DNA from: Comamonadaceae bacterium
GTDB lineage: Bacteria > Pseudomonadota > Gammaproteobacteria > Burkholderiales > Burkholderiaceae_C
NCBI GenBank assembly: GCA_027488115.1
Contig: JAIYCG010000044.1
Coordinates: forward strand, 124,001-188,000
Reading direction: 5' to 3'
DNA length: 64,000 nucleotides
Of the stretch, positions 6,766-50,769 are shown one piece after another. Position 1 is the first letter of the stretch. The number at the start of each line of letters is the position of its first letter. The notes under the pieces are model-generated. The model worked only from the letters and a program-made list of their open reading frames with translations, searched no databases and was not told the DNA's origin. Made by a program: the position numbers and the translations under genes.

Positions 6766-9093
6766 TTAAGCCTGTAACTTAAAGCGCGAAACCTCACGGC
6801 GTGTGGCATCTGCGCTGTTTGACAACGATATGACACTGGCTGTCATTTCCTCGGATGCAGCAGCGTTGCTGTTGGCAATGCGATCAAGGCCTGATAAGTT
6901 GGCATTGATCTCTTCAATGGCAGAGGCTTGCTGTTCCAAAGAGGCCGAGATGCGCTGTAACAGGCTGTCGGTCATTTGTGAAATTTCGCCTACCTGGGCC
7001 ATGTCCTTGCTGACCTCCGTAACGGCCAAAACAGCTTTGGCGGTTTCGCTGGCAGCTGCTTGTACCAACTGGGCAATCTCTTGAGAGCTGGCAGCACTGC
7101 TAACCGCCAGCTTGCCCACTTCATCAGCCACCACGGCAAAGCCTTTGCCATGCTCGCCTGCGCGGGCTGCCTCAATGGCTGCGTTCAAGGACAAGAGATT
7201 AGTTTTATTTGCAATTTTCTCGATCACGCTAGTGATCTTGCTGATTTTTTCAGAGTTGTTTGCAATGGCTGTGACCACTTCCACCATGGCCGCCATTTTT
7301 TGAACGCCTGCCTGAACACGCGCTACCGACTCGCGCGATCTTTCTGATGCCATTTCAGTATTGTTAGACACATCATCAATGGCTTGGCTAGATTGTTTGA
7401 CTGCGGCCGCAACCTGGCTGATGGCCATGGTTTGGTTTTGTGCACCGTCGGCAATTTGGCTAATGGCTTCTGACGTTTCTTTGGAGGCCAAAGCCAACTG
7501 ACGGGTGTTGACGTTGATTTCGTGCATGGCTTTGACCAACGCATCCAAGGACGAATTGATGTTGTCGCGAAGTACCGACAAGTCACCTTGACCCGCTGCT
7601 ACCACTCGGTGGCTTAAGTCACCGCTTGCCAAATTGCGCATCACTTGGCCAATGTCGCTTAACATGAGGTTAAGTGACGACATAGCGAGTTGGGCGTTGT
7701 TGATGGATTTGCCATATTCGCCTTGCGCATTGACATCGATAGCGTATGCAAAATTGCCCTCTTGCAAAGCCTGTGTCACATTGTTCAAGGTGGCAATGGT
7801 GGACTCTACCCGTGCCAAACTGGTGTTCACGGCCGACTTGAGTTTGTCCATGTCTCCTTTGAGGGAGGCTTTGACCGGCTTGGAAAAGTCGCCTTGTGCT
7901 AAAAATTCCATTGTGGTGTTGACTTCTACCAAAGCATCTCCAATGACTTGCAACAAGCGGTTGAAAGAGGCAGAAGTCAAGGCTATCTCGTCAGAACCGC
8001 GAACTTTGACGCGGTGTGTCAAATCAAAGCTCTCTGCAATGGTGTTCATTGAACTTTGCAAAGATTGAAGAGGCTTTTGGATGCTGCGAGTGACCCAATA
8101 GGTTAAGCTTAAAAAGACCAGCGCAAACAAAATAGACAAGGCACTCGCCATGGCGAAACTGTAAGCTGCGTTCTTAGAAAGTGAACTTGCCAAGTCACTC
8201 ATTTGCTTTGTCAATTGATCATCTTGTGCTTTGAGAATGTTCATCTTCTCGGAAATTGCAGCCCACCATGCAGCAGGTGCAATGCCATAGTCTCCGTCCG
8301 TGGCTTTTTTAAGAACTTCATTGCGCAAGACCAGGGCTTCTTTGACACCTGGTTTGTCAAGAGCCAGTGTGAGAGACTGCACATCAGTTGCATTGGCAGT
8401 TTGGCGATAGAGTTTTTCGAAGTTTTCTTGCCGTGCGATGTTGCCAATGAGCTGCGCCAATGCTTCAGGGGTCATAGACTTATTGGCTGTGAGAGTGGCA
8501 TTGATGCCAGCGCGCTCTCGACCTGCGTATTCTTTGAAACTGATCAAGTAGCTGTATGCGCGAATACGTTGTGCAAACTCGACTGAGGGGGAGTCAGCCA
8601 CGGCACTGTCAATGGTGTCTATGAGGGCACTGATACGGCCCGAGTACCACTGAATGGCCACGCCTCCTACAATTGCTTTGGCATCGACTTCTTGACGCTT
8701 GGCAGTGAGTGCTTGGCGCAATGCCTCCAGGCCTTGGTCAGCAGGATTGGCGACAACGCCAATCGAGGCAACACTCTTTAAATATTTGATGGTTTGAGTG
8801 GCTTGCGCAAGGTTGGCGTCAGTCTTCAATCGCTGGGCTTTCAGAGCGCTTGTCGTGGCCTCGCTTCCACCAGAAGCCAAGAAACCCGCAGTCATGCCTC
8901 GCTCTGACTGCAACTCATGCACCAATTGCCCCATTGTGGCCACTTCAGAGACCACCGATGCACTCAAGGCATATTGATTCTTTTCAGTCCAAAACACCCA
9001 TACTTTGTCTAGTGACAAAAAACCCAAGGCAACCAGTAAAGGCAAAACAAGCAAGCTCAGCTTTGTGCGAATTTTGAGAGATTCAAGAGACAT
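6766..9093 (-). CDS. Methyl-accepting chemotaxis protein with NIT sensing domain
   Basis: 775 residues. A first membrane helix lies near 10-30, followed by a helical periplasmic domain with the NIT signature ([18 protein letters not shown]). A second helix lies near 310-332, followed by a HAMP domain and further HAMP-like repeats to about 480. The C-terminal signalling domain contains the highly conserved hairpin tip ([20 protein letters not shown]). NIT domains are associated with nitrate/nitrite sensing in some receptors, but the ligand here is inferred only. AGGAA lies upstream of the ATG. No flagellar or che genes are in the window, and I found no clear sigma-28 promoter. The gene ends against the palindrome. 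Confidence 0.92.
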
Positions 9094-9186
9094 CGATATT
9101 TCCTATTTAAATCGATCATAACCTTGCTCAATGACACGCTCCTATTGGTACAAACAATGTGTTTGAATTGACAAGCTTCCAAATTA

Positions 9187-9360
9187 ATGACTTTAGTACT
9201 CAATTTCAAAAGAGACAATCACAAATTAGAGGCCAGTGTCCATTCGCCGCGTGATCGTCGATGGACAGGGGTTGTGCAAGTCATTTCTGAGGTAATTCGG
9301 ACTGAAGAGGGCATCAAGCCAGTGAAGCCCATAGAATGCCGCTTCAACCAAAAGGCATAG
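9187..9360 (+). CDS. Possible small protein of 57 residues upstream of the FKBP gene
   Basis: An ATG at 9187 opens a 57-codon frame that ends with TAG 7 bp before the FKBP start. The predicted product begins MTLVLNFKRDNHKLEASVH and is basic, with alternating strand-like segments (GVVQVISEVI) and no membrane helix or Cys pair. It fills most of the otherwise empty gap between the divergent chemoreceptor gene and FKBP. The amino-acid makeup looks protein-like, but there is no clear ribosome binding site and I recognise no family. It could be a real small gene coupled to FKBP or a chance frame. Confidence 0.4.
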   Translation: MTLVLNFKRDNHKLEASVHSPRDRRWTGVVQVISEVIRTEEGIKPVKPIECRFNQKA

Positions 9361-47486: not shown

Positions 47487-48116
47487 ATGCAAACTACGCA
47501 CAAACTCAAAGGAAGTTCCTTTTTAGAGCTTCGACAACAGCTGGAATCTCGTGGCATCGTTTTTTCATACTGCGGGTATTTGAACGAAAACATTTTGTCG
47601 GGTATTGGTAACGCCTTGCAAAGCAAGATGGCCATCGATCACACAGATCAAAAGATTTCGCGTGGTATTTTTTCAACTTTCGTTGAACAAGTGCAAAACG
47701 TGATTCGTTACTCGGCAGAAACAATTGGTCCAGAAGAGCGAGCCTTACAAGAGCGTGAGGCCGCCCTCTCTGAGGGACGCGAAGTGAGTGCGATTGATGA
47801 CGGAGAACTTCGTTACGGCCTGATTGCTATTGGTGAAACACCAGAAGGCACACGTTTTGTAACGTGCGCCAATTTGATCAAAAATGAAAATGTAGAACGT
47901 GTTTCTGCCTCTTTGGAAAGCATTCGTGGCTTAAACCGCAAAGAGCTGACAAGCTTGATGCGGGAGCATCTCAAAGCAGGCCCACCTGAAGGCTCCAAAG
48001 GGGCTGGCGTGGGGTTCATTTCAATTGCCCGCGAAGCCAATGGCAATTGGGAATACGACATGGTGCCTATGCCCGACGGCGAGTTCACCTTTTTCTGTCT
48101 TGAAGCCTATTTTTAA
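47487..48116 (+). CDS. siaB: SiaB-like protein kinase of a partner-switch module
   Basis: 209 residues matching the SiaB family (DUF6272), which are GHKL-type Ser/Thr kinases. The N-box-like helix is FVEQVQNVIRYSAE with Glu67 and Asn71; the glycine loop is GAGVGF at 172-177. In Pseudomonas aeruginosa, SiaB phosphorylates SiaC, and SiaA removes the phosphate. Here the gene opens a four-gene operon with a SiaC-like protein, a class III cyclase and a SpoIIE-type phosphatase. The ATG at 47487 lacks a good ribosome binding site and lies just after a 19-bp dyad. Its TAA overlaps a possible ATG of the next gene. Confidence 0.85.
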   Translation: MQTTHKLKGSSFLELRQQLESRGIVFSYCGYLNENILSGIGNALQSKMAIDHTDQKISRGIFSTFVEQVQNVIRYSAETIGPEERALQEREAALSEGREVSAIDDGELRYGLIAIGETPEGTRFVTCANLIKNENVERVSASLESIRGLNRKELTSLMREHLKAGPPEGSKGAGVGFISIAREANGNWEYDMVPMPDGEFTFFCLEAYF

Positions 48117-48127
48117 TGAGATGTAAC

Positions 48128-48508
48128 ATGGAAAAATTCGACATCGCCGCAACCGCTCGTACTCCCCATTTGAGTTTTGATCCAGAAACTGGTTCATTTT
48201 TGCTTGAAGGTGAGTCGTATCCAGAAGATACAAAAAAGTTTTACGATGCACCTCTGAGTCATGTTTACAGTTACTTAGAGACTGACGTTGATACGAAGGC
48301 AACATTTGCTTTCAAACTCAAATATTTCAACAGTTCTTCTGCCAAAGTTTTGATGGATTTGTTCATTGCCATCGAAGAGTCTGCAGTGCGAGGCAACCAA
48401 TTCAAGATCGAGTGGCACTACGCTGCTGACGACGACAACATGCAAGAGTTGGGCGAGGAGTTTGCTGAAGAACTAGACAAAGCCGAGTTCACGATGGTGG
48501 CTTTTTAA
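48128..48508 (+). CDS. siaC: SiaC-like partner-switch protein (DUF1987)
   Basis: 126 residues from ATG 48128, preceded by a GAG-rich ribosome binding site. The frame could also start at 48116 (TAATG overlap), adding MRCN. The SiaC family fold resembles STAS-like regulators. Ser69-Ser71 (YFNSSSAK) lie where I recall the phosphorylated Thr68 of P. aeruginosa SiaC, so this site could be the kinase target. In the known system unphosphorylated SiaC binds and activates the diguanylate cyclase SiaD. The acidic C-terminus (DDDNMQELGEEFAEELDKAEF) is family-like. Confidence 0.87.
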   Translation: MEKFDIAATARTPHLSFDPETGSFLLEGESYPEDTKKFYDAPLSHVYSYLETDVDTKATFAFKLKYFNSSSAKVLMDLFIAIEESAVRGNQFKIEWHYAADDDNMQELGEEFAEELDKAEFTMVAF

Positions 48509-48527
48509 GCCACTTTAAAGGTGAGGC

Positions 48528-49568
48528 GTGAGCGATTCTTTCTTAGGCAAAGAGCAGGAGGTGTTGGTCGAGTGTCAAAAACTTTTGGCCGAAACTCCTG
48601 AGCTTGTCAATCCCGAAGTATTTGGAAAGCTGACAAACGATTACGCACGGTTGATTAAAAACTTCTCACGCATTATCCGAATCAGCGACCGCAACGAACT
48701 CAGATTGCAGTCTGTCTCAGACGAGTTGGAAATTGAAAAGCAAAAACTTGAAGGGATTGCAGGTCAGTTATCCAAGTATTTGCCAAAGCAAATTTACGAT
48801 TCAATTTTTAGTGGCAATCAGTCTATTGAAATCAAAACGCAGCGCAAACTGCTGACAGTTTTCTTTTCAGACATTCAGGGTTTTACTCACATTTCTTCAG
48901 CCATTCAGCCTGAGGTTTTGACGCATTACATCAATGCATATTTCTCTGAAATGTCCAACATCGCGGCCAAATACGGCGGCACGATCGACAAGTTCATTGG
49001 CGACGCCATGATGGTGTTCTTCGGCGATCCGGATACACGCGGTCCCCAAGAAGACGCATTGTCTTGTGTGCGCATGGCTTACGAAATGCAACAGCGCTTG
49101 TCCGAGTTGCATATCTTATGGCAGCGTGAGGGTTTGCAGCATCCATTCATCACGCGCATCGGCATTAACACTGGGTATTGCAACGTCGGCAATTTTGGCA
49201 GTCACAGTCGGATGGCCTACACCATCTTGGGTGGTGAGGTTAATTTGGCCGCTCGAATTGAAGGCAAATGCGATCCCGGTGGTGTATTGATTTCACACGA
49301 GACGTATGCTCAGGTGAAAGATTTTGTTGAGGTTGCAGAGCGCGATTTGTTAGAACTCAAGGGCATTCCAGAGCCTGTCAAAACTTATGCGATTGTGAAG
49401 GTCAGTGACACCAATCGTTCGCACAAATCTGATCTGCGTCTCGATTTGAAGGGCATCGACAAATTGGTGATTAAACCTGCCAATTTATCCATGCCCGAAC
49501 GATTGAGCCTAGTGGCTCACTTGCGTGATATGGCCAACAAACTTGAAGGAATAGAGTCCCATGATTGA
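48528..49568 (+). CDS. Class III nucleotide cyclase (adenylate/guanylate cyclase-type)
   Basis: 346 residues, soluble. The first about 100 residues form a helical/coiled-coil region (VSDELEIEKQKLEGIAGQL), followed by a cyclase homology domain. Metal-binding Asp115 (FFSDIQGFT) and Asp159 (KFIGDAMM), the transition-state Asn239 and Arg243 (VNLAARIE), and Lys155 at the purine-recognition position are present. The second recognition position, Asp or Thr in typical adenylyl cyclases, reads Gly236 (ILGGEVN). The product (cAMP or cGMP) is therefore uncertain, cAMP being likelier. The GTG start has AAGGTGAGG upstream. It occupies the operon slot held by diguanylate cyclase SiaD in Pseudomonas. Confidence 0.88.
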   Translation: MSDSFLGKEQEVLVECQKLLAETPELVNPEVFGKLTNDYARLIKNFSRIIRISDRNELRLQSVSDELEIEKQKLEGIAGQLSKYLPKQIYDSIFSGNQSIEIKTQRKLLTVFFSDIQGFTHISSAIQPEVLTHYINAYFSEMSNIAAKYGGTIDKFIGDAMMVFFGDPDTRGPQEDALSCVRMAYEMQQRLSELHILWQREGLQHPFITRIGINTGYCNVGNFGSHSRMAYTILGGEVNLAARIEGKCDPGGVLISHETYAQVKDFVEVAERDLLELKGIPEPVKTYAIVKVSDTNRSHKSDLRLDLKGIDKLVIKPANLSMPERLSLVAHLRDMANKLEGIESHD

Positions 49569-50769
49569 GCAAAAAGTACGTTCTATCTTGCGTCATCAAG
49601 ATGGTATTTTGGAAACTGAGAAATGTGGCGTGATCATTGCCAACTTTCGAAAAGATGACGAATTGCTGGTGTTGCCAGTGTTCAACGCCAACAAACAAGC
49701 CATTGGTCTGATCGACCGTCAGTCAGTCTTGGCATCGGCTTCTAATCCTCTTCATTTTTCTGTGTATCAAAACCGCAGTGCAAAGATGTTGATTCAAGAG
49801 AAGTTCCCGATTTTTGACATTGAGACCAGCATTGACAAGGCATCTCAACAGATGCTCGAAATGGGCTTGTCCCTTAGCAGTGGCGGTTTTCTCATTGTTG
49901 AAAATGGTGAGTATGCAGGCATTGGGATCAACACTGACATGCTCAACTACTTGGTAGAAGCCAATCACGCACGGGCAGAAGCTTTGGCCGAGTTGCACAC
50001 TGAAATGATGGACAGCGTTAACTATGCAGGACGCATCCAGTCAAGCTTGCTGCCCAATCGGATGGCCTTGCAGGAAGGTTTGCGCTCAGTAGGTGTTTTG
50101 TGGGAGCCGCGCGATGTTGTGGGGGGGGATGTTTATTGGCGTACTGAAGAAGATCACGATGGCTGCTTCACCTTGGCATTGATCGATTGCACGGGGCACG
50201 GCGTGCCAGGCTCGTTGATGTCAATGTTGGTCGTCTCTGTTCTGAACCGCATCTATTCAGAAAAGCCCGAGATTGGGCCTGGCGAAGCATTGTCAAGATT
50301 GGGGAATTTAGTACGTTCCGCCCTTAATCAAGACCGTGAGGACTGCCAGTCTAACGACGGTTTTGATGCGGGCCTCTGCAAGATCAACACCAAGACAAAG
50401 ACGGCTTCATTCTCTGGAGCACGAACCAATTGTTTCATTGTTCCTAAGGAGAATGTGGCTGTGATTAGGTTGTTAGGTGAGAAACAAGCGCTGGGTTATC
50501 CAGGGCAGGTGCCGTACTCACCTCTAGAAGAGTATGAACTGCCGTTGGACACTTGCCAAACTTTTTTCATGGCATCGGATGGGGTTTTAGATCAGCCTGG
50601 TGGTGAGAGCAGCGTTGCTTTCGGTCCGCGCCGCTTGTTGCATCATTTAGAAGCCCATCGCCATTTGGGCGCAGAAGCACTCATGATGCAAACCAAAACA
50701 CTGGTGGATCAATGGCGTGGATCTGAGTTGCGCCGGGATGATGTGTCTGCGTTGGCGTTCTCTGTCTAA
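49561..50769 (+). CDS. SpoIIE-type PP2C phosphatase with CBS-like N-terminal sensor
   Basis: 402 residues, cytoplasmic, no membrane helix. The N-terminal about 140 residues look like a CBS pair: VLPVFNANKQAIGLIDR and a second copy FPIFDIETSIDKASQQM with FLIVENGEYAGIG. A helical linker (HARAEALAELHTEMMDSVNYAGRIQ) leads to the PP2C domain with Asp190 (VGGDVYW), Asp209 (IDCTGHG), Asp268-region (DGFDAG), Asp340 (ASDGVLD) and Asp393/394. It should remove the phosphate from the SiaC-like protein. P. aeruginosa SiaA is a membrane protein with HAMP, so the input here is likely a cytoplasmic ligand, such as a nucleotide (inference). It overlaps the cyclase gene by 8 bases. Confidence 0.87.
   Translation: MIEQKVRSILRHQDGILETEKCGVIIANFRKDDELLVLPVFNANKQAIGLIDRQSVLASASNPLHFSVYQNRSAKMLIQEKFPIFDIETSIDKASQQMLEMGLSLSSGGFLIVENGEYAGIGINTDMLNYLVEANHARAEALAELHTEMMDSVNYAGRIQSSLLPNRMALQEGLRSVGVLWEPRDVVGGDVYWRTEEDHDGCFTLALIDCTGHGVPGSLMSMLVVSVLNRIYSEKPEIGPGEALSRLGNLVRSALNQDREDCQSNDGFDAGLCKINTKTKTASFSGARTNCFIVPKENVAVIRLLGEKQALGYPGQVPYSPLEEYELPLDTCQTFFMASDGVLDQPGGESSVAFGPRRLLHHLEAHRHLGAEALMMQTKTLVDQWRGSELRRDDVSALAFSV

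Follow-up and report, generated by a model that had tools for sequence, protein, structure and literature searches.

A Sia-type partner switch that appears to control a predicted class III adenylyl cyclase

Known Sia-type systems and the locus described here

In the SiaABCD system of Pseudomonas aeruginosa, the output enzyme is the GGDEF diguanylate cyclase SiaD, which makes cyclic di-GMP. The crystal structure of the SiaC–SiaD complex has four SiaC molecules bound to two repeated stalk motifs of a SiaD dimer, with contacts at one motif made by R74, K77, V78, R80, I81, S82, D83, R84, Y85, Q86, M88, R90 and D91 of SiaD (PMC8457831); a passage of the same paper describes activation of SiaD by unphosphorylated SiaC through the stalk dimer. 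The subject of this report is a four-gene locus at positions 47487–50769 on the + strand of a 64,000-nucleotide stretch of DNA (the whole stretch is referred to as the window), in which a phosphorylation switch of the Pseudomonas-biofilm type appears to have been put in charge, in a freshwater bacterium, of an enzyme whose probable product is cyclic AMP (cAMP).

Partner-switch proteins also control a second-messenger enzyme in HsbRAD and BgrSTUWV, which are mentioned in a passage of PMC8457831 and, unlike the window locus, use STAS-domain partners and diguanylate cyclases. A precedent for turning such a switch to second messengers is, by its title alone, PDB entry 3zt9, which differs in being a stressosome module. 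The SiaC–SiaD authors suggested, in one passage of PMC8457831, that DUF1987 proteins modulate adjacent proteins; the term 'adenylate cyclase' does not occur in the main text of that paper, and in a portion of PMC12834913 it is mentioned once, for comparison. Neither a connection of SiaC with any class III cyclase nor a Ser/Thr partner switch controlling cAMP was found in titles and abstract starts of the open-licence PMC literature, subscription papers being outside the scope of this search.

The locus comprises four open reading frames (ORFs):

47487–48116, + strand: SiaB-family Ser/Thr kinase, DUF6272, GHKL-type (Pfam, NCBIfam, alignment)
48116–48508, + strand: SiaC-family phosphoprotein (Pfam, NCBIfam; PDB match to P. 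aeruginosa SiaC, E = 6.4e-14)
48528–49568, + strand: class III cyclase, predicted adenylyl cyclase, 346 residues, no predicted membrane segment (Pfam, fold match, catalytic residues)
49561–50769, + strand: PP2C (SpoIIE-type) phosphatase with a SiaA-like catalytic domain (Pfam, NCBIfam, structure model)

The original prediction had proposed a SiaB-like kinase, a SiaC-like partner protein, a class III cyclase and a SpoIIE-type phosphatase in coupled genes, and the Pfam and NCBIfam matches (Pfam E-values of 2.9e-31 for DUF6272, 2.7e-36 for SiaC, 1.2e-26 for Guanylate_cyc and 7.2e-21 for SpoIIE) and the coordinates confirm this set. All four ORFs lie on the + strand, closely spaced. The siaB stop codon finishes at 48116, the first base of the siaC ORF, for which comparison with relatives makes ATG 48128 the likelier start; 19 base pairs (bp) separate siaC from the cyclase gene, which begins with GTG at 48528, and the phosphatase start at 49561 overlaps the cyclase stop at 49568. 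Because scores against the NCBIfam equivalogs of P. aeruginosa are all below cut-off (63 against 225 bits for SiaB, 85 against 150 for SiaC and 169.7 against 700 for SiaA), the window proteins are treated as family members rather than as orthologues of the P. aeruginosa proteins.

Shared with SiaABCD are the SiaB-family kinase, the SiaC phosphoprotein, the SiaA-like PP2C domain and an output enzyme with a SiaC-docking stalk helix. Unlike in SiaABCD, the output is a class III cyclase rather than the GGDEF enzyme SiaD, one docking motif was found rather than two, the predicted acceptor residue is Ser rather than Thr, the phosphatase has no predicted membrane segments, and the gene order is B–C–cyclase–A rather than A–B–C–D. 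Pfam and NCBIfam give no GGDEF match in the locus proteins, the output ORF having a Guanylate_cyc domain. As the defining GGDEF output is absent, the locus would work like a Sia switch but is not SiaABCD.

A predicted SiaC-docking helix on the cyclase

Ahead of the catalytic domain of the cyclase, a structure model places a helix spanning residues 29–81, within which lies the motif:

48636–48740, + strand: SiaC-docking stalk motif, cyclase residues 37–71 (profile E = 2.0e-14; SiaD-only profile E = 0.0019)

The sequence R-I-I-R-I-S-D-R-N-E at residues 48–57 stands at the place matching the SiaD motif, with its R-I-S-D-R core at residues 51–55 (positions 48678–48692). The stalk profile, A1, comprises 36 residues and was built from 20 SiaC-adjacent stalks. 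Searched against the PDB, it has SiaD (7e6g) as its sole significant match (E = 9.4e-12), which falls on the stretch that binds SiaC; all six remaining matches, each with E above 5, are to tropomyosins. A second profile, made solely from 13 SiaD-type stalks to limit circularity, was run against 4447 ORFs; at E < 0.01 it recovers 21 of 27 cyclase rows, a count that includes duplicates, and the window cyclase is one of those recovered.

Occurrence of the helix follows that of SiaC. Each of 398 Pseudomonadota genomes was searched for both: SiaC is present in 67, the stalk in 59 and both in 58, so that the stalk is found in 58 of 67 SiaC-positive genomes and in 1 of 331 SiaC-negative ones, a co-occurrence for which Fisher values are too strong because the genomes are related. 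The sole SiaC-negative match (G751, E = 0.0064) falls in an acyl-CoA-synthetase-like frame and was rejected as chance-like. Sixteen of the 20 profile rows derive from these 398 genomes; with those 16 genomes excluded, the counts at E ≤ 0.005 are 42 of 51 SiaC-positive and 0 of 331 SiaC-negative. Among the 369 genomes of a second set, partly shared with the first, SiaC and the stalk each occur in 10 genomes and together in 8, that is, the stalk is present in 8 of 10 SiaC-positive against 2 of 359 SiaC-negative genomes. One of these two matches (G412) lies in the frame of no recognised protein and was also set aside as chance-like; the other, G236, is taken up below. An origin of the motif by chance is ruled out by the SiaD-only profile, the PDB search and the comparison of SiaC-positive with SiaC-negative genomes.

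Coupling between SiaC and the helix was ranked over 77 SiaC–stalk pairs and 3625 position pairs. Highest is SiaC75–stalk81 (Z = 10.0), followed by SiaC114–stalk77 (Z = 5.8). Among the contacts named in PMC8457831 are M75 and I81 (hydrophobic) and D114 and K77 (hydrogen bonds), the pairing of M75 with I81 and of D114 with K77 being a reading in which contacts are matched by their order in the text. The sole other named contact to rank high is 107–88, at 21 of 3625. With an acidic residue at SiaC114, Lys or Arg occupies stalk position 77 in 68 pairs and is absent in 2; with a non-acidic residue it is absent in 7 of 7, and the same split is seen within the 19 SiaC–cyclase pairs (12/0/0/7). The p-values of this co-variation are too strong, because independent events are few.

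The proposal of a class III cyclase switched by SiaC in SiaD's place is supported by this SiaD-type docking helix, by its near confinement to genomes with SiaC, and by co-variation of SiaC and helix at contacts of the crystal, which is also seen when cyclase loci are taken by themselves.

The predicted phosphorylation switch

Two further features belong to SiaC and the phosphatase:

48332–48334, + strand: codon of Ser73 of siaC, in the numbering of the ORF that starts at 48116; in the alignment this residue falls on Thr68, the phosphorylated residue in P. aeruginosa SiaC
49561–49935, + strand: CBS-like N-terminal region of the phosphatase (family matches, model units)

The kinase passes the NCBIfam SiaB_fam_kinase cut-off (147.8 against 85 bits) and retains Glu at the position that aligns with E61 in P. 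aeruginosa SiaB, a residue named in a passage of PMC7647112. Window SiaC scores 124.3 bits against a curated cut-off of 24.5 for the SiaC family PF09345, has Ser at position 68, and retains N-S-S at the Thr68 site; of 100 SiaC sequences, 91 have Ser at this position and the other 9 have Thr. Among PDB entries, SiaA-PP2C comes nearest to the phosphatase model (6k4e; template modelling score of 0.89 by target length, 30% identity). A simple hydropathy scan predicts no membrane segment in the phosphatase, and the earlier view that a soluble protein stands here in place of membrane SiaA therefore holds for this locus. Its CBS match is weak (E = 0.014, below cut-off); CBS is matched in 10 of 18 aligned family members (best E = 2.3e-7), and the model contains two helix–strand–strand–helix units at the N-terminus. 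This region is a probable input module of the phosphatase. To judge from sequence, the catalytic parts of the locus proteins look intact.

By analogy with SiaD, we consider it quite likely that the locus encodes a complete Sia-type partner switch with an adenylyl cyclase as output, in which unphosphorylated SiaC activates through the stalk. The SiaB-like kinase would place a phosphate on Ser73 of SiaC, and the SiaA-like PP2C domain, with the CBS-like region as its probable input, would remove it. Unphosphorylated SiaC would dock on the motif of the N-terminal helix of the cyclase, as SiaC does on SiaD, and stabilise a parallel stalk dimer; this would pair the catalytic domains, with the active sites between them, and turn cAMP synthesis on. 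Phosphorylation of SiaC would block docking and turn synthesis off. As one motif is seen, a complex of two cyclase and two SiaC molecules is likelier than the 2:4 arrangement of SiaD and SiaC. If this scheme is true, a Ser/Thr partner switch would govern cAMP.

The sign of the switch is not given by sequence, and the docking evidence suits either polarity, including one in which docked SiaC inhibits the cyclase until SiaB phosphorylates SiaC. An argument against this opposite polarity is that the active sites of class III enzymes require dimerisation, as GGDEF pairs do. Unphosphorylated SiaC is moreover the activating form in the sole studied case, as described in a passage of PMC8457831, and inhibition by docked SiaC is rather unlikely.

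The predicted product of the cyclase

Class III adenylyl cyclases have two metal-binding Asp residues, Lys plus Thr or Asp for recognition of adenine, and Asn and Arg for catalysis. The full set is present in the catalytic domain of the window enzyme:

48849–49394, + strand: class III catalytic domain, residues 108–289, with D115, K155, D159, T232, N239 and R243 (Pfam, residue alignment)

The metal-binding pair corresponds to D115 and D159, the adenine pair to K155 and T232, and the catalytic pair to N239 and R243. Since K155 and T232 form the adenylyl-type pair under the general rule, the product is predicted to be cAMP. CyaB of P. aeruginosa is an adenylyl cyclase that is membrane-bound and has a sensor region of its own. 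Its catalytic domain (3r5g) resembles that of the window enzyme and is the best solved match (50–51% identity by fold match); unlike CyaB, the window cyclase has a SiaC-docking stalk before this domain. Class III enzymes include guanylyl cyclases, one of which, Cya2 (2w01), was also matched by fold, but given the adenine pair and the closeness to CyaB it is very unlikely that the product is cyclic GMP (cGMP), or both nucleotides. The original designation as a cAMP/cGMP-type cyclase thus stands as to enzyme class and is narrowed by the residues to one that probably makes cAMP rather than cGMP. The window's genome has seven matches to domains binding cyclic nucleotide monophosphates, none of them tied to this locus.

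In the SiaC-linked cyclases of four other loci (L136, L137, L147 and L152), the Lys for adenine recognition is replaced by N, A, A or G, and two of the four also lack the catalytic Asn; these enzymes may use a different substrate or be inactive.

Other outputs carrying the helix

A set of 100 loci (L070–L169) was fetched, 99 of them with a SiaC call. A stalk-bearing ORF, defined by at least 8 bits with the rebuilt profile, is present in 76 of the 99, and in 71 of these 76 it lies on the same strand as siaC and at most 66 bp away. By domain the 76 divide into 29 GGDEF, 22 HD-GYP, 18 class III cyclase, 5 histidine-kinase-like, 1 PP2C and 1 unclassified protein. Cyclases adjoining SiaC carry it in 18 of 18 loci, five weakly (14–22 bits).

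The HHET-x-x-G-x-GYP signature is found in all 22 HD-GYP proteins; GAF plus HD_5 is the Pfam result for the three proteins examined that way, two of the 22 and one from a named locus. Presence of these neighbours suggests that breakdown of cyclic di-GMP (c-di-GMP) is also under SiaC control. The HD-GYP proteins are about 670–715 residues long, have the helix at the N-terminus and adjoin siaC (L111, L112, L115, L119, L133, L143 and 16 more).

On a tree of SiaC, the cyclase label changes 10 times, at least four of the changes being forced by well-supported branches; outputs have therefore probably been exchanged more than once, the count being rough because a tree built on a short alignment of 126 columns has poor resolution, with 46 of its 97 inner branches open. 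Taken across these loci, SiaC is rather probably the moving part of a plug-in switch rather than a dedicated regulator of diguanylate cyclases. A helix of about 36 residues, present on outputs of five types or more (GGDEF, class III adenylyl cyclase, GAF–HD-GYP, histidine kinase and PP2C), would let one SiaABC cassette direct synthesis or breakdown of c-di-GMP, cAMP or phosphorylation, with two insulated SiaC–cyclase switches side by side in a Limnohabitans-like genome. The crystal contacts of one Pseudomonas complex would become a sequence signature for the likely SiaC target elsewhere, HD-GYP neighbours included, and the idea that DUF1987 proteins modulate adjacent proteins would be directly testable.

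The second of these switches is a SiaC locus in the window's genome encoding PP2C, SiaB, SiaC and a class III cyclase in siaABCD order, its phosphatase being a membrane protein of the 7TMR-DISM (7TM) type. One pair in this genome combines M75/I81 with E114/R77, the other Y75/H81 with R114/D77. With such a charge-swapped interface the two switches would stay apart, which suggests that the pairs are insulated from each other; since both pairs, with their interfaces swapped, belong to the same cell, they lend themselves to the study of specificity. Within the genus there are two distinct SiaC–cyclase types, the window type and the L070 type, which co-occur in the window's genome and in G025.

Evidence against control of the cyclase by SiaC

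Several observations weigh against a cyclase switched by SiaC. The SiaD-only profile fails on 6 of the 27 cyclase rows at E < 0.01, and the window cyclase shows a single docking motif where SiaD has two. The SiaD contacts R74, Y85, M88, R90 and D91 and the SiaC contacts Q10, I71, D79 and R103 are not retained in the window pair, and confidence in the cyclase model is moderate (mean predicted local distance difference test score of 79.6 and predicted template modelling score of 0.58, from an alignment of 21). A stalk ORF is lacking in 23 of the 99 SiaC loci, some of which are cut by contig ends. Most of the other named contacts are uncoupled, some because they are nearly invariant; 79–74 (rank 2144) and 103–91 (rank 3149) vary and are nonetheless uncoupled. 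The named contacts had been inspected before the blind ranking, and tree-independent pairs number two for 114/77 and one or two for 75/81, too few for a sign test to reach significance. A true exception is G236, in which the helix occurs on two paralogous histidine kinases (L211:4973–5926 and 7905–9260) and no SiaC match is found in the genome; SiaC may be missing from this draft assembly, or the kinase helices may have another partner.

Of the 398 genomes, 261 encode class III cyclases, and a hand count puts those without SiaC at 204. Adjoining genes need not interact, and the helices of G236 would suit a general signalling coil, but the notion that the cyclase is a mere neighbour while SiaC acts on another protein is very unlikely: the window's genome has four class III cyclases, and the two of them that adjoin a siaC are its only stalk carriers of any kind at E ≤ 0.01 (E = 2.0e-14 and, weakly, 0.0032), the stalk is matched in one of the 204 SiaC-negative genomes, in the acyl-CoA-synthetase-like frame, and SiaC residues co-vary with the cyclase helix.

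Related loci and gene arrangements

The nearest named relatives are from Limnohabitans and Curvibacter. SiaB, SiaC and the cyclase occur together in 8 of 15 named loci, all eight from these two genera, and the phosphatase is also present in seven of the eight, the remaining locus (L016) stopping at a contig edge. No cyclase adjoins SiaC in the other 7 of the 15; other families of the phylum also hold SiaC–cyclase loci. Within the genus SiaC is patchy, being found in the window's genome and in 7 of 35 other genomes.

Extra stalk ORFs are located on other contigs or far from siaC in several SiaC-positive genomes (G455, G506, G516, G527, G480 and others), and one SiaC might therefore serve several outputs. 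In one locus (L155:6428–8311), a PP2C domain and a SiaB kinase are naturally fused in a single ORF of 628 residues adjoining siaC. A single operon in another (L152:3135–5965) has SiaB-type kinases on both sides of siaC, together with a class III cyclase.

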